DNA from: a virus
IMG/VR virus record: IMGVR_UViG_3300044960_000528
Location: 1 to 36,995 of that record
Reading direction: 5' to 3' (one strand)
DNA length: 36,995 bases
Position 1 is the first letter of the stretch, and each line of letters opens with the position of its first letter. The notes under the pieces were generated by a model. The model was not told where the DNA came from and searched no databases. It saw only the letters and a program-made list of their open reading frames with translations. Positions 2,435-36,995 of this stretch are shown one piece after another. A program made the translations under genes and the position numbers.

Positions 2435-3166
2435 GTGAAGTCTCTGATAGTGGTGGCGGCTGTGTTTGGAGCCGTCGCGATTGGCCTGCCGGATGCCACG
2501 GTGCCCAACACCGAAAATCCGGCCCAAAATACCGCTTCCATCGAATCCCAGGTGGTGGAAACCAGCGTACGGGTCGCTACGGACTGGGGCGTCGGGACGG
2601 GCACTGTTCTGAGGGTCGGCGATGAGATTCTGATTCTTACCGCCGGCCACGTGGTGTCTGAACTGGTGGAGGAGTGGAATGTCATTCGGATTGGGGAAAC
2701 TGGGCCGGTGGAGGTGCCTGCCCGGAGGCCCAAGGCCAGTATTACGGCCCGCGACGGCCGCAACACGGTGGCAGTAGTGGTCTGGTACGCCGAGGAGCCT
2801 GACCTGGCCCTGCTGCGGCCGGACAGCGCTCGCGGTCTTAATCCTGCGAGGTTGGCCCAGAAAAAGGCTGATCTGGGCACCACTGTATGGGTTTGTGGGC
2901 AGGGCGATGGTTTGCCCTGGAACCTGACCCGTTCTTCCGTGAATCAGTATCGCGACGATGACCAAACTCTGGTAATCGGAGCGGCGGAAATTTGGTTTGG
3001 ACACTCTGGCTCCGGTGTTTTCGCCCTGGAAAATGGCCAGTGGTCGCTTGTGGGCGTGGTGAGTCGAGCCTGGAATCACCCGGCCAAGAGCCCCCGAACA
3101 CCTACTCTGTGTGAGGCGGGCGTGCTGGATTTTCTGAGGGAATACTCTGAGAAGGGGAAGAAGTGA
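2435..3166 (+). CDS. Secreted trypsin-like (S1/HtrA-type) serine protease
   Basis: Protein of 243 residues starting at GTG 2435, two bases after the previous stop. The N-terminus (MKSLIVVAAVFGAVAIGLP) looks like a signal peptide, so the product is probably exported. The S1 catalytic triad is visible: His in TAGHVV, Asp in EPDLALLRP and Ser in the GHSGSGVF loop. No PDZ domain follows, so it is a bare protease domain. It sits among nucleotide-metabolism genes of the early operon and ends in a GTGA overlap with the next gene. A secreted protease made early is unusual for a phage; superinfection exclusion or cleavage of a host envelope protein are possibilities, not shown. Confidence 0.8.
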   Translation: MKSLIVVAAVFGAVAIGLPDATVPNTENPAQNTASIESQVVETSVRVATDWGVGTGTVLRVGDEILILTAGHVVSELVEEWNVIRIGETGPVEVPARRPKASITARDGRNTVAVVVWYAEEPDLALLRPDSARGLNPARLAQKKADLGTTVWVCGQGDGLPWNLTRSSVNQYRDDDQTLVIGAAEIWFGHSGSGVFALENGQWSLVGVVSRAWNHPAKSPRTPTLCEAGVLDFLREYSEKGKK

Positions 3167-4600: not shown

Positions 4601-4927
4601 ATGACAGCGGAGGAGTTCTGGCAGGCTCTGGAGGAGACGGCCACAATTCCCGGTCGCCGGTTTAGGCTGCGGGGACGGTACTGGCGGCGGGAGGGCGACG
4701 GGCTCTGCCCGATCTGTGCCCTGTGTTTGGATTGTACCGGTGATCTGTACGACAACGCGTCCTATCCAGAGGCGGCGAGGCGGCTCGGGCTCTCTACCAT
4801 GTTTGCCCATGAGGTCGCTCAGGCGGCAGATGGTCGTCCTTACGAGCGAGACTCCCTGAAAGATCTGACTGCGGTGCGTGAACGGTTGGAAAACATTTTC
4901 GCCCGGGAGGACCAAGAGCGTGACTGA
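4601..4927 (+). CDS. EEFW/CPIC small protein, paralogue 1
   Basis: Protein of 108 residues, not assigned to a named family. It begins MTAEEFWQALEE, has a central CPICALC segment, a YDN sequence, AARRLGL and an AAD motif before a C-terminal helix ending in Arg-Leu. The same layout recurs in the next gene and at 5848, so these are three diverged copies. The two closely spaced Cys residues in this copy could bind a metal or form a disulphide, but a single CxxC-like cluster is not a complete zinc site. A clear GGAGGGGG lies about 10 bases before ATG. It overlaps the next gene by 8 bases. Confidence 0.82.
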   Translation: MTAEEFWQALEETATIPGRRFRLRGRYWRREGDGLCPICALCLDCTGDLYDNASYPEAARRLGLSTMFAHEVAQAADGRPYERDSLKDLTAVRERLENIFAREDQERD

Positions 4928-5246
4928 GGAAGAGTTCTGGGCGGCACTGTCGGAAATCGCCGAGATCCCTGGAGGAGAGTTCGCCGAGGACGGCGAAGGC
5001 CTGATCCGCCGCTACTCTGATGGGATGTGTCCGATCTGCGCGGTCTGTTTCGCCCGGACGGGCCGTCGCTACGACAACCAGGCCTACGACCTGGCAGCCA
5101 TTGATCTTGGCTTGCCACAAAACGTGACCTGTCGGGTGGCCAACGCGGCGGACAACTATTTGTTTCTGGATTCTATTCGGGAGACGCGGCAGCGGCTCCA
5201 AACTCTCGTCAAGAGGAGGTGTGAAGGTGGCTGGTTCACAGAATGA
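4920..5246 (+). CDS. EEFW/CPIC small protein, paralogue 2
   Basis: Protein of 108 residues from GTG 4920 (a longer frame exists upstream, but it would begin deep inside the previous gene). It aligns end to end with its upstream neighbour: TEEEFWAAL, IPGG.F, CPICAVC, a YDN sequence, AAIDLGL, ANAADNY and a closing helix. Function unknown. Its last codons overlap the start of the next gene by 26 bases. The first unit of a 15-bp tandem repeat lies across its stop codon, so the repeat units downstream each carry a copy of this gene's stop-codon sequence. Confidence 0.82.
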   Translation: MTEEEFWAALSEIAEIPGGEFAEDGEGLIRRYSDGMCPICAVCFARTGRRYDNQAYDLAAIDLGLPQNVTCRVANAADNYLFLDSIRETRQRLQTLVKRRCEGGWFTE

Positions 5247-5847: not shown

Positions 5848-6201
5848 GTGACTGTCGAGGAGTTTTGGGCGACACTGGCCCGAATCAGGCATCTGTTCGT
5901 CAGCGGCGACCGGTTCGTCCGGGTAATTCGCACGGCGGATGCGTGTTATTGCCCGGTGATCGCTGTGTATCGGGAGTCCGGCGGTTCTCGGTGGCTCACG
6001 AACTGGGAAGCTATCGAGGCGGGCCTGGAACTCGGGCTGGAGCGACGCTTTGTCGAGGCGGTTGTGGAGGCCGCAGACGACTACCAGCTTAGGCCAGAGG
6101 CTCAGGCCGCTCGGGTGAAGCTGGAGGAGGTTCTGGGCCTGGGCCTGGCGAAGCGGCGAGAGCCGGCTGTGGCCAGGGAGTCTGAGGGGGTGAGCGCGTG
6201 A
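5848..6201 (+). CDS. EEFW small protein, diverged paralogue 3
   Basis: Protein of 117 residues from GTG 5848, preceded by GAGGGGGAG. It keeps the frame of the two copies at 4601 and 4920: TVEEFWATL, a Phe-rich stretch, CPVIAVY where the others have CPICAVC, then AGLELGLE, VEAADDY and a C-terminal helix. It has lost the paired cysteines, which argues against an essential metal site in the family. It carries a longer C-terminal tail (residues about 95-117). Function unknown. Its stop overlaps the next start (GTGA). Confidence 0.8.
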   Translation: MTVEEFWATLARIRHLFVSGDRFVRVIRTADACYCPVIAVYRESGGSRWLTNWEAIEAGLELGLERRFVEAVVEAADDYQLRPEAQAARVKLEEVLGLGLAKRREPAVARESEGVSA

Positions 6202-6560
6202 GCGAGGCGGTGCTGTGGGTTCTGCTGCTGCTGCCGGCCTTTGTGGCTGGGGCAGTGACCTACGCTGTGTTTCGCTGGGCTTTCGGTGCGGCCCAGCAAT
6301 CTGCGAGCTCGCCCGAGGAGCCGGCGGACCCGGAGGAGCCCTGGGGAATACCGAATATTACCTGGGTGTTGCAGTGCCGGCCCGGTGAGGTGGTGCGAAT
6401 CGGTCCTGGCCTGCGGATCTACCTCTGGGTGGATTCGGTTGATCGAGGGATCGCCCGGCTGGTGATCCGAGTTCCTTCGCGCTTCCCGGTGGAGAGGATG
6501 CCCCAGCCTCCGGCCGCTTGCCTGAGCCAACCGGCGGCTATCGAGGTTCCAAACAACTAA
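6198..6560 (+). CDS. Membrane-anchored CsrA-like protein
   Basis: Protein of 120 residues starting at GTG 6198. Residues about 4-28 form one strongly hydrophobic membrane segment, followed by a short acidic/proline linker. Residues about 55-103 resemble CsrA/RsmA: VLQCRPGEVVRIG aligns with the LTRRxGExxxIG start of CsrA, and ARLVIRVPSRFPVER with the VRIGVxAPxxVxVHR end, keeping the GE, IG, Pro and final Arg. CsrA binds GGA in RNA leaders. If the likeness is real, this would tether RNA binding to the membrane. It is the last gene before a terminator-like hairpin. The match was made by eye and could be coincidence in a short beta-rich domain. Confidence 0.55.
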   Translation: MSEAVLWVLLLLPAFVAGAVTYAVFRWAFGAAQQSASSPEEPADPEEPWGIPNITWVLQCRPGEVVRIGPGLRIYLWVDSVDRGIARLVIRVPSRFPVERMPQPPAACLSQPAAIEVPNN

Positions 6561-7782: not shown

Positions 7783-7821
7783 AAGCCCAGAAACTCACAC
7801 TCCGGCCGGAACCTGCTCCTC

Positions 7822-7980
7822 GGGCACGGCTTCAAGCTGTCGCCCATCGTGGGCGAGTTGATGGCCGAATTGATCGTTGATGGCCAGGCCAAAACGCTCG
7901 ACATCACGCCGCTGCGCTTCGCTCGCTTTGACGAGAACGACCCGGTGAAAACTCCTTACGCCTACGGTGTGATGGGCTAA
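7822..7980 (+). pseudogene. C-terminal fragment of a bacterial FAD-dependent amine oxidase
   Basis: The frame GHGFKLSPIVGELMAELI... through LDITPLRFARF to the stop at 7980 reads as the last 52 residues of a DadA/sarcosine-oxidase-like FAD oxidoreductase. The GHGFK pattern is the conserved FAD-contact segment near the C-terminus of that family. There is no start codon or N-terminal domain, so it is a remnant. It is followed by a normal-looking bacterial intergenic gap and then carA in the same direction, as in a chromosome. Confidence 0.72.
7828..7845 (+). repeat. Left member of an imperfect direct repeat around the bacterial insert
   Basis: GGCTTCAAGCTGTCGCCC here and GGCTCAAGCTCGTCGCCC at 8674-8691 differ by two single-base indels. 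The right copy starts where carA similarity ends. This could be the microhomology used in the recombination, or chance. Confidence 0.45.
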
Positions 7981-8092
7981 CACTCCACGAGTCACAATGG
8001 TTGGCGAGCGCTGCTCGCTGACCTGGCCACTTGTTCTTCCCCTCCTAGGATGAATGGAATTTGTCCCTGGTTGCCGCGAACGGAGGGGAGAC

Positions 8093-8673
8093 GTGACGGA
8101 AAAACCGGCCAAGCTGGCCCTGGAAGATGGCACGGTGTACACTGGCTGGAGCTTTGGGGCCGAGGGGGAAACCTGCGGCGAGGTTGTTTTCAATACCAGC
8201 ATGACGGGTTATCAGGAGGTGCTCACCGATCCGTCCTACAAGGGACAGATCGTCACCATGACCTACCCCCTGATTGGCAATTACGGGGTCACGGTCGAGG
8301 ATGGCGAGTCGGGCCGGCCCCAGGTCGAGGGCTTCGTCGTCCGCGAGGCCGCCCGGGTGCCCAGCAACTATCGCTCGCAGATGACCTGGCCCGAGTATCT
8401 TCAGTCCAATGTCGATGCCCGGGATCGAGGGCATCGACACCCGCGCCCTGGTTCGCAAGCTGCGGGTCCGGGGCAGCATGAATGGCGTGCTGTCCACGGT
8501 GGACCTCGACGACCTGTCGCTGGTCCGCAAGGCGCGCAGTTTCCCTTCCATCGTGGGTCGGGATCTGGTTCGCGAGGTCATCCCGGCCAGGAGCTTCACC
8601 TGGAATGTGGGTTTTTCCAGTCCCCTGGTGTCCTATCTGCCCGCGCATCCGCCGACGCACCACGTAGCGGTGC
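8093..8673 (+). pseudogene. carA: carA fragment: carbamoyl-phosphate synthase small subunit, truncated and frameshifted
   Basis: From GTG 8093 (preceded by GGAGGGGAG) the frame reads as the CarA N-terminal domain: [41 protein letters not shown] and [13 protein letters not shown]. Near 8405-8420 the reading moves to another frame, where [31 protein letters not shown] and [12 protein letters not shown] continue the same protein. Similarity stops at PPTHHVAV (about 8670), before the amidotransferase domain with its catalytic Cys. The gene is therefore broken twice and cannot make an active subunit. It belongs to pyrimidine/arginine synthesis in bacteria, not to phages. A sequencing error could explain the frameshift but not the truncation. 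Confidence 0.88.
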
Positions 8674-8828
8674 GGCTCAAGCTCGTCGCCCCGCATCAGG
8701 GAGCGGACCTTGACCCGGGTGTCGGCCTTCCAGACCTCGGCGTTCATGAAGCTCTTGGAGCGGCGGTCGGGGCTGGGGTTGGGGGTGTCCTTCGTCACGA
8801 CGTAGCGGCCTGCCAGCAATGCCTTCAT
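8674..8828 (-). pseudogene. Phage minus-strand gene cut off by the bacterial insert
   Basis: On the minus strand ATG 8828 has GCGAGGT about 5 bases upstream and begins MKALLAGRYVVTKDTPNPS, continuing through [20 protein letters not shown]. After about 50 residues the frame runs into the antisense of carA and stays open by chance to 8289, so the tail of the ORF is not native. I read this as the N-terminal remnant of a small phage gene of unknown function. The imperfect direct repeat at 8674-8691 marks the probable junction. Confidence 0.55.
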
Positions 8829-27145: not shown

Positions 27146-27859
27146 ATGATTTCTTTTGCCGGGGTCCAGCTAAGTCAGCCTACAGAGGAGTTGCGGGACT
27201 GGGCTCGCGGTGTTCACGCCCCGTCGCTCTGTCCCGAACTAACCATTGACAACTGGCTGCCCGACTTACGGAGTCCGGGAGTAATCCTCAACCGCCTCGC
27301 CTGGCCTGTCGGAGCCGGGCGTTTCGGTTGGGGATTTTTTGTAACGAGCGAAAAGCAGTTAGAGGCCATTCGGCTGAAAGTTTACGGCAATCCCGCAGAC
27401 TACGCCACCCAGCCGCTGGTTTTTTCGAGCGGAAACCGCTCTCTGTCCTTCCAAATGCGAGCTCTGGTGCCTATTCCTCTGAGCCAGTTCGCCGGTTCCA
27501 ACCCTGTTTCTCTGCTCCCCCTGGTTGATGACCGATTTTTCTGGGGGCAACGCTGGTTCACACCTAACTATGCGGCCGGCGACACCTGGGAAAAAGGCAT
27601 CGCCGCAGTAAACAACGCTTTTGGCCTGAAAATCCGCCCGCGCGGCACGCTCTCCCTGTCGGCCTGGAAGATTTCTGCCGCCAGGCCCGAAAAAACCAGT
27701 CTCCGTGAGGCGCTGGTGGCCTGTGAGGCCCAAACGCTCTCTGTTCTCCTCCCCCAGCCAGACGGTAGCCTGGAACTGGCTGCCCGAGCCGATGCTGCGG
27801 CTGTTCAGCCCCAGTCCTGGGTGCGAAACTACTCGGTAATCTCCGGGGGAATCGCGTGA
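27146..27859 (+). CDS. Baseplate/tail-fibre-associated protein, unknown
   Basis: Protein of 237 residues, beginning MISFAGVQLSQPTEELRDWA. It is beta-rich with a central aromatic stretch (RFFWGQRWFTPNYAAGDTWE) and ends in YSVISGGIA, overlapping the next start by 4 bases (GTGA). The tight coupling to the long fibre gene suggests that it links the fibre to the tail. No family is recognised. Confidence 0.6.
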   Translation: MISFAGVQLSQPTEELRDWARGVHAPSLCPELTIDNWLPDLRSPGVILNRLAWPVGAGRFGWGFFVTSEKQLEAIRLKVYGNPADYATQPLVFSSGNRSLSFQMRALVPIPLSQFAGSNPVSLLPLVDDRFFWGQRWFTPNYAAGDTWEKGIAAVNNAFGLKIRPRGTLSLSAWKISAARPEKTSLREALVACEAQTLSVLLPQPDGSLELAARADAAAVQPQSWVRNYSVISGGIA

Positions 27860-30117
27860 TTACCCGCGATCTTAACGCCGCTGTCCCCGCCTCCCTGGTG
27901 ATCCGCTTCCCCGTCCTCTCCAGCCAGGGCGATCCTACCGGAGCGTGGTACGACGTCACCGTTACCCTGTTTTCGCTGGGACTGGCCGGGCAGTATCGCG
28001 GAAATAGCCAGACCCAGGGCCTGATCCGCGCCACGGCCTGGTACGACGGCTCCAACGCCGCAGAACTTAACAGCCAGGCCGAGAAAATCGCCAGGGCCTG
28101 GTATGCCCAGGCCCTGCAACGCTACGATCTGGTCTTCGGCTGTCTGATGGCCGAAGACCTCACGCCGGCCGACGATTTTGTGGAAATCATCCACGACGAG
28201 CGCGGCCTGTTAACCAGGCGGCGATCCACAGAGCCCGTTTTTGCCACCTATGCGGCCGTTCTGCACGGGTCTAAAGGCCAGGACGGCGTTCCAGTCGGCC
28301 TCAGCACAGACCCCACCCAAAACGCGTTTAATGCCGCGAGTGATGTCCCCGGTTCGTGCTGCCTGAACACCAGCTATGGATTTCACCTCGCCGACGTGCC
28401 GGGCACGCTGGACACGGTGCAGTTCACCTATCGAGACTCTACACTGAAACTGGTGGAGACGGAGACTATCCTGCGGGATGGCTCCAATTTCACGGTCCCC
28501 ACCGGGCAGATAACTACCTGGCAGGGCGGCGGCACCCTGGTTTTTGATACCACCACCCTGCGCTTTGATACGCCGGCCATTTTCAACGCCTATTTTCGCT
28601 GGCCAATCGCGGAAATGACGGCCGGCGTCGATCAACCCGGCCTGGCAATCACCGAGGCAGCCGCTGTCCTCCAGTTCAACGCCACTGCCGACCTTAATTT
28701 GTTTGGAATAGCGGCCGGAGCCGCCGGCCGCATGTTGTGGTTTCAGAATGTTGGCTATGGCACAGTCACAATCAAGCACGAATCCGCCTCGGCGGAATCG
28801 CTGACCTACCGGATTCAGACCCCCGGCGGTCTGGATTTTCAGGTCCGGCCCGGTGAGGGCACCGCATTGTGGTGGGACGGCGCGGCCCAGCGCTGGCGGG
28901 TGCCAGGAGCCGCCAATGCGGTGGACGGCTCTGGGACCACGCCCCGGTATGCCTACTGGGCCACCCCGGAAGCCCTGGCGGCAGCGGCGATCGAGGAACA
29001 GTCCTCGCGGCTGCTGGCTCTGAAAAAACTGTCGTTTCACACCACCACTACCGCCGAAGAACTGGCGTTTATTTGGCGTGATGATACTTACCGCCTGGTG
29101 ATTGGCTTAGGAAACACCAATTGCTTTGTTTTCGACAATAACGCCAAATTTTTAGACATCCTCGACCAAGTCAACGGCCATTACCGCTGCCGGGGCAATG
29201 CCGGCCAAACCACAACGGTTTTCGGCATGACTTTCACCGGAGGCATCCTCACCGGGGCCGGCTCAGGATCGCTGTCCTCCAGCGATATTTCGGATTTTGC
29301 CGAGGCAGCCCAGGATTCGGTCGGTAACAGCCTCACAGACTCGGCCACAATCGACTTTACCTACGACGACGCCGGCAACTCTATCACGGCAGTAGTCAAG
29401 GACAATAGCATCACGCCCGCCAAGCTGGACGACGGCTCGGCTTACTCTGTCCTGGGCCGGGCCGGCAGCACCAGCGGCGACAGGGCCGATATTACCGCCA
29501 CTTTTCCGGGCCAGGTACTGCGGCGGGACGGCGGCGGCCTGGCATTTGGGGCCGTTAACCTCAGCAGCGGCACCGCTGTTTCCGGCACGCTGGGAATCAG
29601 CAATGGCGGCACCGGAGCCACCAGCTTTAACAGTCGTGGCGTGGTTTTTTCCGGCTCCAGTGGGCTCAGTTCCACTTCGGCCGGCACCGACAATCAGGTG
29701 CTAAGATCGCAGGGCGGCGGCAGTAATGATCCAGTCTTTGAATGGCTAAGAGGCGAAATTCTCGGCAGCAACTTTGTGGCCACCGAGGAAACTACTACCA
29801 GCGGCACGCCCACAGACTTGACCACGACACAAAGTATTACTTTCACACTGGAGAGCGCTCAGGATGTCCTGATTTTCGCCGCTTGCACCAGTTACAATAC
29901 CACAGCCAGTGGGGTTAATACCCTAACTTTCGACATTGACGGCACAGATTACACGGCTGTCAGCGGCACAATGGACGCTGCTAGCTCACAATATCCGCTA
30001 TGTGCCGTGCAAAAGCGGTCTTTAACTTCCGGCTCACACACAATCAAGCTGCAATTCCACCGCAACTCCGGCACCGCCGGTTTCAAGGACCGGGGAATTT
30101 TTGTGGCCAGGGGCTGA
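27856..30117 (+). CDS. Tail fibre protein
   Basis: The longest tail gene, 753 residues from GTG 27856. The N-terminal 150 residues look like an attachment domain (VIRFPVLSSQGDPTGAWYDV, QRYDLVFGCLMAEDLTPADD). The middle and end are Gly/Ser/Thr-rich beta repeats with fibre signatures: ISNGGTGATSFNSRG, SAGTDNQVLRSQGGG, then a C-terminal jelly-roll-like head (LTFDIDGTDYTAVSGTMDA...HTIKLQFHRNSG). The NGGTGATS sequence is characteristic of phage tail fibres. It probably decides host range. A 17-bp motif copy (AASDVP) lies in frame at 28334. Confidence 0.82.
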   Translation: MITRDLNAAVPASLVIRFPVLSSQGDPTGAWYDVTVTLFSLGLAGQYRGNSQTQGLIRATAWYDGSNAAELNSQAEKIARAWYAQALQRYDLVFGCLMAEDLTPADDFVEIIHDERGLLTRRRSTEPVFATYAAVLHGSKGQDGVPVGLSTDPTQNAFNAASDVPGSCCLNTSYGFHLADVPGTLDTVQFTYRDSTLKLVETETILRDGSNFTVPTGQITTWQGGGTLVFDTTTLRFDTPAIFNAYFRWPIAEMTAGVDQPGLAITEAAAVLQFNATADLNLFGIAAGAAGRMLWFQNVGYGTVTIKHESASAESLTYRIQTPGGLDFQVRPGEGTALWWDGAAQRWRVPGAANAVDGSGTTPRYAYWATPEALAAAAIEEQSSRLLALKKLSFHTTTTAEELAFIWRDDTYRLVIGLGNTNCFVFDNNAKFLDILDQVNGHYRCRGNAGQTTTVFGMTFTGGILTGAGSGSLSSSDISDFAEAAQDSVGNSLTDSATIDFTYDDAGNSITAVVKDNSITPAKLDDGSAYSVLGRAGSTSGDRADITATFPGQVLRRDGGGLAFGAVNLSSGTAVSGTLGISNGGTGATSFNSRGVVFSGSSGLSSTSAGTDNQVLRSQGGGSNDPVFEWLRGEILGSNFVATEETTTSGTPTDLTTTQSITFTLESAQDVLIFAACTSYNTTASGVNTLTFDIDGTDYTAVSGTMDAASSQYPLCAVQKRSLTSGSHTIKLQFHRNSGTAGFKDRGIFVARG
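28334..28350 (-). repeat. Dispersed 17-bp motif, exact copy
   Basis: CCGCGAGTGATGTCCCC within the tail fibre gene, read as AASDVP. Confidence 0.85.
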
Positions 30118-30119
30118 AA

Positions 30120-30530
30120 ATGGCTGAGTTTCGCTTTGCCTACACCTTGCCGGCCCGGGATGAAGAGCAACTGCATCAGGAGTTGTTTTCGCTATTTCCG
30201 GGGAAATTCCAGGGCGTCTGCGGTAGCGGCCCAGTGGTACAGGCGGTTTTCTCCGGCGATCTTACCTCTTCGGAAAAGACTTCCCTGGATTCAGCCGTTC
30301 TGGGCCATGTGCCCAACACCCAGCTTCAGGGCCAGAGACTGCAAACCGCCGCCAAGGCCCTGTTTGACAGGCCCGATCTGGTGGCCCGGCTTGTACGGGC
30401 TCTGGCTCTGGTAGTTCTGGACGAAATTAACCGCCTGAGAGGCAGTCCAACCACCACTTTTCCCCCGATTTCGCCGACTGCTATGCGGTCGGCCATTCTG
30501 GCCAAACTCGACCTGGACAATACGGTGTAA
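30120..30530 (+). CDS. Hypothetical protein after the tail fibre
   Basis: Protein of 136 residues from ATG 30120, two bases after the fibre stop. It begins MAEFRFAYTLPARDEEQLHQ, then PGKFQGVCGSGPVVQAVFSG and a helical end RPDLVARLVRALALVVLDEI. No family is recognised. It could be a fibre chaperone or a cap. Two bases separate it from the membrane peptidase gene. Confidence 0.6.
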   Translation: MAEFRFAYTLPARDEEQLHQELFSLFPGKFQGVCGSGPVVQAVFSGDLTSSEKTSLDSAVLGHVPNTQLQGQRLQTAAKALFDRPDLVARLVRALALVVLDEINRLRGSPTTTFPPISPTAMRSAILAKLDLDNTV

Positions 30531-30532
30531 AC

Positions 30533-32263
30533 ATGAGAAAACCCCTGATTTTGCTGGCTCAACTGGCCCTTATCGCGCTTTGTTTTGCGGGGGCGGCCTG
30601 TCTCGGCTGGACTATCGGCACTTTCTACCAAAATCACGGCCCCAGTGCCTGTAACTGCTGTCTCAACTGCGATTGCGGCCAGGACTGCCAGTGCGGTTCG
30701 CGGGACTGCTGCCGCTGCTCGGAAAATTGCCGCTGCTCGGAAAACTGCCGCTGTACTGGCTGTACTGGCTGTACTGGCTGTAACAGCCACAAACCGCGAG
30801 GACAGTGCCCGCCTAACAGCCCGTGTCCCCAGCCCACCAAGTCGGAGGCTCAGGTTGATCTGCTGGAAATGCCCCAGGAAAACCGCAAGGAGAACATCAG
30901 CAGCCGGGGCCTCGGCTGCTGCACCTTTCGCAGTGCGGAATACGCTGCCCACTGGCAGAATGTGCCCTCTCTCTGGGGTTTGCCCGAGTGGATGAAGGCC
31001 CGAGGTATCGCCGGCGGCGGATACCCGCAAAAACAGGCCCAAATTATCGAGCAAATCGCCCTGGAACGCCGGCAGCCGGTCCCAGATTTTGTACAGTACG
31101 AGGGGCCTTTTCCCGAGGTGTTGATCGAGGCCGCGCTGGCGTCCGGGCGGGTTCCCTGCATCACCTGGAACGCAACACATATGCTGTGTTGCGTTTATTT
31201 GGACCGCGAAAAAGCGGCCATCCTCGATAACAACGAGCCTGGCCGCTACCGCTGGTACGACCGCTGGGATTTTCTCAAGCGCGTTAATGCCGGCGGGGCC
31301 TGGGTTTTTGTCCTGACCGCCCCCGCGCCGGCTCCCAAGGCCAGAATTTCCGTGGAAAATCAGGCCCAGGATACCTACGAGTGGTTACACCATGACGGAC
31401 CCAAATACAGTCTCTGGCTCAACCAAAAACAGATAGGTTTCTGGGACGGCCAGACCTACTACCCCTATTTGGGCAACGGTCGCTGGGGCGACCCGTGCGA
31501 TCCTCCGGTGACGCCTCCAAATGCCTCGACAAAACGGCTGGAGGGCGTGATCTCCTGGCAAAAGCCCCGAGGAGAGCGCTGGACCCGTGGGGTCAGACTG
31601 ACTGAAATCGACCAGACTACCGCCCTGAGTCTGCTGGCGGACAGCGAAAAACCCCATCTAACTCTGGTGGCCCAGCCAGAATCGAGTCTGCGGGCAGTAC
31701 AGGATCTGGCGGGCAAAACTCACCGGATTCAGGCCTATACGGGCTCCGAGTGGGCCGTACAGCCAGCACGCGGCCATCAGGCCGGCCTGGTAATACAGGG
31801 CCGCGACGGCAGAGTGCAATTTCGCCAGACAGCCCTGGATCTGGAGGCCCTGAAACAGTTCCTCACCCAGCCCTCGCCGTCTCCTTCCCCCTCACCCTCC
31901 CCCTCTCCAGCCCCGGTGAACCCTGTGACACCAGCCCCGGCCCCGGTTTCCCCGACTCCCAAAGCCCCTGACGAAAGGCCTCTGCCTGTGGACCCTGTAA
32001 CCCTTCTTTTGGTGGGTGGTGCATTGCTTGGATCGCAACTTCTTTCGCGGATTCTTGGCCGAATTAGGCCGCAGCAACCTGTTACTCCACAGCCTGTGCC
32101 GGCTCCCGTGCCACCGGCCGCGAGTACTGTCCCCTTGCCGCAAAACCCTTTGATCGCCGCCGTGCTGTCGCTTATCCTGGCGGAAGTCGCCCGGCGAGGC
32201 CCTGACATCCTCCAGGCGCTGGCCCGCGCCCTTCTGGAAAAGCGGGATTCTTCGGCTCAGTAA
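30533..32263 (+). CDS. Membrane-anchored, cysteine-rich C39/papain-like peptidase (candidate lysis protein)
   Basis: A 576-residue protein with five parts: (1) an N-terminal membrane segment (residues about 4-30); (2) a metallothionein-like stretch with 17 cysteines in residues 40-83, including CSENCR twice and CTG three times; (3) a peptidase-like domain (about 125-262) resembling family C39: Cys129/130 in RGLGCCTFRSAEY, His216 in NATHMLCCVYLD and Asp232-Asn233 in ILDNNEPGRYRW; (4) a middle region with WDGQTYYPYLGNG, then Ser-Pro repeats; (5) a second hydrophobic segment (about 483-505) and a final amphipathic helix. It is the only membrane or hydrolase candidate where a lysis cassette should be. 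Substrate unknown. A diverged 17-bp motif lies in frame at 32118. Confidence 0.72.
   Translation: MRKPLILLAQLALIALCFAGAACLGWTIGTFYQNHGPSACNCCLNCDCGQDCQCGSRDCCRCSENCRCSENCRCTGCTGCTGCNSHKPRGQCPPNSPCPQPTKSEAQVDLLEMPQENRKENISSRGLGCCTFRSAEYAAHWQNVPSLWGLPEWMKARGIAGGGYPQKQAQIIEQIALERRQPVPDFVQYEGPFPEVLIEAALASGRVPCITWNATHMLCCVYLDREKAAILDNNEPGRYRWYDRWDFLKRVNAGGAWVFVLTAPAPAPKARISVENQAQDTYEWLHHDGPKYSLWLNQKQIGFWDGQTYYPYLGNGRWGDPCDPPVTPPNASTKRLEGVISWQKPRGERWTRGVRLTEIDQTTALSLLADSEKPHLTLVAQPESSLRAVQDLAGKTHRIQAYTGSEWAVQPARGHQAGLVIQGRDGRVQFRQTALDLEALKQFLTQPSPSPSPSPSPSPAPVNPVTPAPAPVSPTPKAPDERPLPVDPVTLLLVGGALLGSQLLSRILGRIRPQQPVTPQPVPAPVPPAASTVPLPQNPLIAAVLSLILAEVARRGPDILQALARALLEKRDSSAQ
30715..30785 (+). repeat. 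Short tandem repeats encoding the Cys-rich region
   Basis: An 18-base unit encoding CSENCR occurs twice (one base different) and a 9-base unit (TGTACTGGC) three times in a row. These units lengthen the cysteine-rich part and are prone to slippage. Confidence 0.8.
32118..32134 (-). repeat. Dispersed 17-bp motif, two changes
   Basis: CCGCGAGTACTGTCCCC near the 3' end of the peptidase gene, read as AASTVP. Confidence 0.6.
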
Positions 32264-32299: not shown

Positions 32300-32950
32300 A
32301 TGCGGATTTTGTGGCGCGGTAAAGCACCCAGGAAACCGAGGAAGTCGAGGAAAAAACCCGTGAAAATCGTGACACTACCCCAGGAAGGCCCGGAGTGGCA
32401 CCGCTGGCGATCCGGAGGCCTCGGCGGCTCCGATGCCCCGATTATCGCCGGGGACGTCGGCTGGACCACGCCCGAGGAACTGCTCCGGGCCAAGCTGGCC
32501 GGCGAAACCGCCGAGGAAACCGAGGCCATGCGGCGGGGCAAACGGCTGGAGCCGCTGGCCCGACAGCTTTACGAACTGCTTGCGGGCCGAAAAATGACCC
32601 CCTGCTGTGTGGTCCACGACGATTACCCCTGGCTCCGGGCCTCTTTGGACGGCCTGAGCGACGACTGGCAGTTGGTTCTGGAAATCAAGTGCCCGCGCTC
32701 TGATGGACCGCACCGCACGGCTCTGGCCGGGGCTGTTCCGGCCTATTATCGGGCTCAACTCCAGCACCAGTTGCTTGTCACGGGAGCCCCACTACTCCAC
32801 TACTGGAGCTACACGGATTCTGTGACTTTCGCCCCCGACGACCGGGTGGCCCTGGTAGAGGTGCTGCCCGATCGGGAATACCAGGAGTGGCTGTTCAAAA
32901 AAGAGCAGGAGTTTATGCAGAGCTTGATAGCTGATCTGCCCCCGGACTAG
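32300..32950 (+). CDS. YqaJ-type (lambda-exonuclease-like) recombination nuclease
   Basis: Protein of 216 residues from ATG 32300 with AAAAAGGAG seven bases upstream, the strongest ribosome site of the region. After a basic N-terminus (KAPRKPRKSRKKPVK), the nuclease core shows GGLGGSDAPIIAG, RGKRLEPLARQLYE, LRASLDGL with the catalytic Asp, LEIKCP with the Glu-x-Lys pair, and the helix YYRAQLQHQLLVTG. Such exonucleases chew 5' ends and hand 3' ssDNA to an annealing protein, here the RecT-like product at 33800. They are separated by a terminator and a minus-strand regulator, so they belong to different transcripts. Confidence 0.88.
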   Translation: MRILWRGKAPRKPRKSRKKPVKIVTLPQEGPEWHRWRSGGLGGSDAPIIAGDVGWTTPEELLRAKLAGETAEETEAMRRGKRLEPLARQLYELLAGRKMTPCCVVHDDYPWLRASLDGLSDDWQLVLEIKCPRSDGPHRTALAGAVPAYYRAQLQHQLLVTGAPLLHYWSYTDSVTFAPDDRVALVEVLPDREYQEWLFKKEQEFMQSLIADLPPD

Positions 32951-32973: not shown

Positions 32974-32982
32974 TGAAAGCAG

Positions 32983-33013
32983 GGGACCGGCCCGGCCGGT
33001 CCCTTTTTTTTTT
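32983..33013 (+). terminator. Strong rho-independent terminator
   Basis: GGGACCGG, loop CCCGG, CCGGTCCC, followed by 10 T. It closes the late/peptidase/exonuclease transcription unit and is flanked by oppositely oriented copies of the 17-bp motif. Confidence 0.93.
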
Positions 33014-36589: not shown

Positions 36590-36995
36590 GTATGAATTGC
36601 CCTGGAGTGGTGAGCCGCTGGAGTGCCCCGAAGGCTACCTGGCCTTCGACACCGAAACCAATGTGGTGGACCTGGCTAGAGAGGTGCCTACCCTGGTGCT
36701 GGCCACCGCTCACGATGGCAAGCGCTCGGTGGTGATTCGCCCGGAACAGATTGGCGATTTTGTGGCCCGGCACGCCGGTGTGGACTGGGCCATTCACAAC
36801 CTGGCGTTTGATTGGCATGTTGTGGACGCGGCTCTGGCTCAGGCCGGCGATGAGTTGGCCCAGAAAGCCTGGCTCGGCCTGCTCGCCAGTAATCGCCTGT
36901 TCGACAGCATGCTGGCCGACATGCTGGTCCGCCTGGCTGCCGATGGGCGATCACAGTTGTACCCACGGAATTTGGCCCAACTCTCCAAAGAGTTT
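36528..36995 (+). CDS. Family A DNA polymerase, N-terminal part (continues at position 1)
   Basis: Residues 1-156 of the polymerase, running off the window end and overlapping the left end by 201 bases. GTG 36528 has GGAGG nine bases upstream, inside the nuclease gene. The Exo I motif is AFDTETN with Asp41 and Glu43, and Exo II HNLAFD starts at residue 90. Residues 90-156 are the same as those at positions 1-201 except for one Val/Ala difference. Confidence 0.93.
   Translation, partial: MAEDSLLPSIPWHTRRGRAGEYELPWSGEPLECPEGYLAFDTETNVVDLAREVPTLVLATAHDGKRSVVIRPEQIGDFVARHAGVDWAIHNLAFDWHVVDAALAQAGDELAQKAWLGLLASNRLFDSMLADMLVRLAADGRSQLYPRNLAQLSKEF
36795..36995. repeat. Right copy of the 201-bp terminal overlap
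   Basis: Equals 1-201 except C at 36868 (T at 74). See the left copy for interpretation. Confidence 0.93.

Follow-up and report, generated by a model that had tools for sequence, protein, structure and literature searches.

A conserved gene cassette of planctomycete phages, encoding a papain-fold protein and thioredoxin-fold partners, is a candidate lysis system

Does the 576-aa protein encoded behind the tail genes of a planctomycete phage take part in opening the host cell? Planctomycetes are bacteria whose envelope is unusual, and our literature search returned no account of their lysis by phages. The window analysed here is a whole virus record of 36,995 bp (IMGVR_UViG_3300044960_000528). 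Its two ends overlap by about 201 bp and are near-identical there, the first 20 bases recurring at 36795 and the last 20 ending at 201, and a DNA polymerase A frame continues across the end junction; the genome of about 36.8 kb is therefore essentially complete. Among its proteins, portal, TerL, capsid-like and head-tail proteins were recognised; Rfam yielded no RNA family in the window.

The peptidase-like ORF at 30533-32263 (+) is real, and its ATG lies 2 nt past the stop of the preceding gene. The simple home-made gene caller trimmed its N-terminus to 30869; the longer start is backed by the signal peptides of relatives and by an alignment with relative L013 that begins at residue 1. We called transmembrane (TM) segments and signals from hydropathy and sequence patterns. 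The features of the locus, and one gene from the replication side of the genome, are as follows.

27856..30117, + strand: large protein, putative tail fibre, upstream (phage depolymerase C-terminal domain PF25692, E=2.5e-4, a weak match below Pfam's cut-off)
30120..30530, + strand: gene for a 136-aa protein, flanked by the putative tail fibre and peptidase genes (gene call)
30533..32263, + strand: predicted exported fusion protein, 576 aa (homology to about 100 nonredundant relatives; AF2; Foldseek)
30539..30619, + strand: N-terminal hydrophobic segment, residues 3-29, signal anchor or signal peptide (AF2 helix 3-23)
30650..30781, + strand: Cys-rich segment, residues 40-83, 17 Cys (disordered in the AF2 model, pLDDT <50)
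30713..30748, + strand: 18-bp in-frame tandem repeat, two copies (RCSENC), one synonymous difference (read from the sequence)
30752..30778, + strand: 9-bp in-frame tandem repeat, three copies (Cys-Thr-Gly) (read from the sequence)
30845..31342, + strand: C39/papain-fold domain, residues 105-270 (AF2 pLDDT 96; Foldseek to C39 peptidases and staphopain)
30920..30922, + strand: Cys130, predicted nucleophile (invariant in 38/38 and 50/50 aligned relatives)
31178..31180, + strand: His216, predicted catalytic base (invariant in the same 38 and 50)
31226..31228, + strand: Asp232 of a D-N-N motif, predicted third triad member (invariant in the same 38 and 50)
31592..31870, + strand: thioredoxin-fold domain without CxxC, residues about 354-446 (Foldseek to thioredoxins; TRXLb HMM E=1.8e-10)
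31871..31969, + strand: Ser-Pro/Pro-rich linker, residues 447-479 (sequence)
31988..32056, + strand: C-terminal TM segment, residues 486-508 (AF2 helix 488-508; C-terminal TM in 43/45 TRXL relatives)
32144..32242, + strand: C-terminal helix, residues 538-570 (AF2 helix 539-575)
32300..32950, + strand: lambda-exonuclease family nuclease, next gene downstream of the peptidase (TIGR03033, E=3e-36)
32981..33005, + strand: terminator-like hairpin, 11-bp stem and T8, after the nuclease gene (consensus scan)
2435..3166, + strand: replication-side gene for a trypsin-like protease whose N-terminus is hydrophobic (PF13365, 2.8e-16)

The fusion protein thus lists, from its N-terminus, a hydrophobic segment, a Cys-rich linker, the C39/papain-fold domain, a thioredoxin-like domain, a Pro-rich linker and a C-terminal TM segment. 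A preliminary description of this DNA had noted a membrane anchor, Ser-Pro repeats and a second membrane segment, and had placed the gene after a tail fibre; all three elements are present (the repeats from residue 447 onward, the second hydrophobic helix at 486-508), and a putative tail gene does precede the ORF. In a pattern test, Cys23 satisfied a loosely defined lipoprotein motif and failed the strict lipobox. The whole ORF has no Pfam, PHROG or NCBIfam family match, and the same three collections reveal no murein-hydrolase domain of known type in the protein. Among the genes that adjoin the ORF in this window, none was recognised as a separate holin-like gene. The trypsin-like protease is a possible functional partner of the C39-like protein, and in 4 relatives trypsin genes are found close to the C39 gene. 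Elsewhere in the window, a 120-aa protein with an N-terminal membrane segment (6198-6560), just before the putative small terminase subunit, gave a very weak CsrA-like match (E=0.066), and three proteins of 108-122 aa (4601-4927, 4878-5246 and 5848-6201) share an EEFW-type start by eye and are possible paralogues.

The count of 17 cysteines in 44 residues, as first described, is exact for residues 40-83. Against the genome background of 1.0% Cys, the binomial chance of such a segment is about 6e-23, and every other called protein of the genome has at most 5 Cys per 44 residues. The short in-frame DNA repeats make up part of the segment, in which CxC/CxxC spacing is seen. Its original label, metallothionein-like, did not hold: neither Pfam nor NCBIfam yielded a metallothionein profile match, and we dropped that reading because the segment is rare and movable among relatives. 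A Cys-rich stretch (at least 5 Cys in 30 aa) stands beside the C39-like domain in 4 of 102 complete relatives, in differing places. Since so few relatives have one, at varying positions, the segment looks like a variable accessory, more plausibly structural or redox in nature.

Foldseek with the full-length model mixed two domains, and the C39-like domain was therefore modelled separately. Residues 105-275 alone gave an AF2 pLDDT of 96 and a pTM of 0.90, in support of the earlier guess of a C39-like domain. The leading Foldseek matches were CtaG, AziU2/U3 and C39 peptidases (PCAT1, ComA), followed by staphopain and papain; probabilities were about 1.0 for the top matches, which are concordant, with modest E-values of about 1e-3. 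With the peptidase C39 domains (PDB 6mpz, 7n87, 5xe9, 3b79; probability 0.9-1.0) the window protein shares the papain-like fold and Cys, His and Asp in matching order, although identity in the structural alignments is only about 10-15%. Staphopain and papain (PDB 1pxv, 4qrx) have the secreted cysteine protease fold in common with it, whereas the window protein is phage-borne, membrane-tethered and equipped with other accessory domains. The top-ranked CtaG and AziU2/U3 (PDB 9quz, 8gs1) are papain-fold proteins from a biosynthetic context, at 8-20% identity. CHAP-type phage lysins (Ly7917, PDB 5d74/5d76) belong to the papain-like fold class too and gave a partial structural match (probability 0.84-0.89).

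Ten residues are invariant in 38 aligned relatives: G128, C130, H216, M217, D224, D232, N233, N234, W241 and W257. The preliminary description had pointed to Cys129/130 and His216; of these, C130 and H216 stand, while C129 is variable, so that C130 is the conserved Cys. The order C130, H216, D232 agrees with a C39-type triad. These data support a protein that is, in its predicted fold, a membrane-anchored peptidase with a conserved candidate triad, and peptidase activity is predicted for the C39-like domain. None of 38 members matches Pfam C39, and a search of the PDB by sequence gave no match. Because Pfam, NCBIfam and PHROG matches are lacking, the protein has a C39-like fold and is not a member of peptidase family C39 in the Pfam/MEROPS sense.

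Two elements go beyond the preliminary description, namely the thioredoxin-fold domain at about 354-446 and a wider family. The domain was recognised by Foldseek with a probability of about 0.99, at moderate model confidence. CxxC is absent from it and is not conserved in the homologous neighbour proteins TRXL and TRXLb; it is conserved only in a separate thioredoxin neighbour (TRX).

Single-sequence searches with the window protein found no relatives, which alone would suggest an orphan. Relatives came to light with a degenerate DNA pattern encoding H-M-x3-[VIL]-x-[L]-D-x7-D-N-N, its residues suggested by a resemblance to planctomycete viral proteins; matches were then confirmed by BLAST and alignment. 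In IMG/VR the pattern retrieved 96 viral stretches, of which about 95 were judged on inspection to be relatives, and the best BLAST relative, L026, is 40% identical over 391 aa (E 8e-70). Two sequence types are distinguished. Type A has a strict lipobox in 36 of 55 members; type B has mostly a plain signal peptide, with a hydrophobic N-terminus in most members and long C-terminal parts in 17/47.

Run against 84,980 species genomes of bacteria and archaea, the same pattern gave 16 matches, 14 of which are family members by inspection. Thirteen of these lie in planctomycete-titled records; the remaining record, titled only 'Bacterium', is listed in the same taxonomic family as the Gemmataceae genome. 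The C39-like gene is carried by 25 of 95 genomes of the family of the Gemmataceae genome and by 8 of 45 of the family of Singulisphaera GP187, and in a phylum-wide sample by 1 of 294, this one being the seed genome (up to 6 candidates were scored per genome). On these frequencies we rejected an ordinary host gene. Two cultured strains, Singulisphaera sp. GP187 and Paludisphaera soli JC670, carry the gene, and members in host genomes probably belong to prophages. By tblastn, the family was found in 0 of 50,697 phage records and 0 of 72,556 plasmid records; in the Pfam, PHROG and NCBIfam searches made, its members had no match either. The host phylum of these phages is Planctomycetota, and host-like fragments inside the window point to Gemmataceae. 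Window positions 7821-7986 and 8081-8674 reach identities of 74% and 81% with Gemmataceae chromosomes, which they match in separate regions; one of the two is a frameshifted 5' carA fragment (PF00988, 2.4e-41) and the other resembles, by eye, a citrate-synthase N-terminus. They are either captured host fragments or a chimeric assembly.

Gene calls at 74 nonredundant loci define a cassette across planctomycete phages that was previously undescribed. The usual order is the C39-like gene, a thioredoxin-like protein (TRXL), a small protein with one TM segment (smTM) and often the CxxC thioredoxin, which matches PF00085 at 6e-11 in the member tested. TRXL has an N-terminal hydrophobic segment in 43/45 cases and a C-terminal TM segment in 43/45. 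The small TM protein has no holin family match. Most relatives encode the C39-like enzyme on its own, as an exported protein or lipoprotein, with TRXL as a distinct, membrane-anchored neighbour. TRXL has a homologue in the C-terminal half of the window protein (HMM E 1.8e-10 to TRXLb; TRXLb versus TRXL, hhalign probability 97.9); two genes that normally lie side by side are therefore fused in the window. A C39-TRXL fusion is seen in L026 too, followed by two small TM proteins, one Cys-rich, and then by a gene that is TerL-like by eye; the 64-aa protein at L026:1424-1618, which has a single membrane segment and ends in a Cys-rich tail, adjoins the fusion. In another locus (Gemmataceae CJuql4, L173:1426-3408, - strand), a trypsin-like stretch lies, by eye, between the C39 and TRXL domains of one ORF.

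In a TerL-anchored sample, every locus with sufficient upstream sequence (47/47) showed the order C39-TRXL-smTM-TRX; these are not 47 independent lineages, because the TerL-fetched contigs partly overlap the earlier ones and some are near-identical. The C39-like gene is single-copy in nearly all of 34 viral records. The cassette lies upstream of TerL or, in temperate phages, between tail genes and an integrase-like gene, where it forms the end of the tail operon. At type-A loci the gene at -1 (e.g. L144:2008-2616) encodes a cytosolic protein with a weak likeness to permuted papain enzymes (NF008552, E=0.029); it also matches phrog_1128 (3e-11), filed under moron/host takeover.

The preliminary description had seen no endolysin elsewhere in the genome and had staked its lysis reading on that absence, which we confirmed for five families. 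At the sequence level, Amidase_2, Phage_lysozyme, SLT, CHAP and Peptidase_M15_3 were found in 0 of 28 phage records, the whole window record and 27 related ones, whereas control genomes were positive. Thirty window proteins scanned with Pfam included no recognised endolysin, and neither did 95 proteins of five related phages among the best 25 of 40 Pfam families matched. A muralytic domain could be concealed within a large virion protein. The type-A -1 protein could itself be an endolysin, which would leave the C39 protein as an accessory.

Taken together, we propose, with a probability of roughly 0.55, that the cassette is a lysis cassette whose exported cysteine peptidase would be the wall-attacking enzyme. 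The lysis role suggested earlier gains circumstantial support here: a lysis cassette fits because of the late, lysis-typical position, the export signals, the small membrane proteins, the near-fixed presence and the lack of canonical endolysins. In the proposed mechanism, the hydrophobic N-terminus would export the fusion protein and the C-terminal segment would hold it in the inner membrane. The cysteine hydrolase (Cys130/His216/Asp232) and the thioredoxin-fold domain without redox cysteines would then be tethered by the Pro-rich linker in the periplasm, where the hydrolase may cut the wall, either peptidoglycan peptides or wall and envelope proteins. The thioredoxin-like part may position the hydrolase or bind substrate, and the small membrane protein may control timing or disrupt the membrane in a holin-like manner.

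As to the substrate, the first description favoured a protease suited to a protein-rich wall. The Planctomycetota host lends this more weight, but murein is a likely target, at least as likely as protein, because planctomycetes have lysozyme-sensitive peptidoglycan (PMC4432640). Older literature, as cited by PMC2754498, describes a disulfide-bonded protein sacculus, and on that account a proteolytic or redox variant is conceivable. Lysis would then proceed without a muramidase, the exported cysteine peptidase, the thioredoxin-fold proteins, often the CxxC thioredoxin and sometimes a trypsin-like protease dismantling a disulfide-rich envelope protein layer; we regard this version as doubtful, though, if true, such a mechanism of lysis would differ from the holin-endolysin-spanin systems known so far. 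ZRK32, a phage whose host is a cultured planctomycete, is uninformative on lysis because its release was reported to occur without lysis (PMC10945688).

Papain-like folds act also in acyl transfer and biosynthesis, and the top-ranked CtaG and AziU matches count to that extent against lysis. Instead of lysing the cell, the C39-like protein and its partner might alter or cleave surface proteins and so block adsorption or injection, as an envelope-modifying or superinfection-exclusion module. Such systems typically consist of membrane-anchored exported proteins and lipoproteins, and the moron/host takeover match of the type-A upstream neighbour and the presence of members in host genomes, probably as prophages, point the same way. 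However, accessory genes usually vary between close relatives, whereas the fixed order at all 47 loci and the single copy look like a core late function, and the classical endolysin families are absent; we hold such a module to be unlikely. The domain might instead serve as a maturation or secretion peptidase that trims leader peptides of other exported proteins, given that C39 domains trim double-glycine leader peptides and those of PCAT and ComA are among the closest folds. In C39 transporters, though, the peptidase domain is cytosolic, while the window domain is predicted to be periplasmic; the window family has no ABC transporter fusion, its members bear a lipobox or signal peptide and are paired with a thioredoxin-like protein, and the neighbourhood table holds neither an ABC transporter nor an obvious precursor gene, which makes this role improbable.

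An enzyme-armed spanin is also to be weighed, in which the lipoprotein C39 and TRXL, or the window fusion, would bridge the envelope and act on the outer layers while another protein cuts murein. The T7 Rz/Rz1 genes also lie between terminase genes, and the type-A topology, a lipoprotein and an inner-membrane protein with a Pro-rich linker, is that of two-component spanins such as Rz/Rz1. The window protein has the inner-membrane segment (486-508, hydropathy-based) and periplasmic domain of a spanin, but it also contains two folded parts, one enzyme-like and one of thioredoxin fold, and fails the strict lipobox, and type-B members mostly have a plain signal peptide without lipobox. Moreover, the TRXL TM segment is C-terminal, whereas that of i-spanins is N-terminal. 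Hydrophobic segments at both ends of the fusion recall unimolecular spanins such as T1 gp11; however, 58 u-spanins surveyed had no periplasmic Cys (PMC6139136), against the many of the window protein. A spanin thus described seems to us quite unlikely, if less so than a maturation peptidase. Most improbable is that the papain fold lacks catalytic activity and serves as a tethered binding module, and that metal is bound by the Cys-rich segment. The case for catalysis comes from modelling and the CxC/CxxC spacing would suit metal binding, but C, H and D are invariant in 50/50 aligned relatives, as expected of an active enzyme, and the Cys-rich part is not conserved.

The cassette, with its fixed place in one phage clade, is a testable candidate for planctomycete phage lysis. 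If it is a lysis system, an exported papain-fold hydrolase with thioredoxin-fold partners would join the known ways in which phages open cells, and the cassette would serve as a marker for planctomycete phages in metagenomes.
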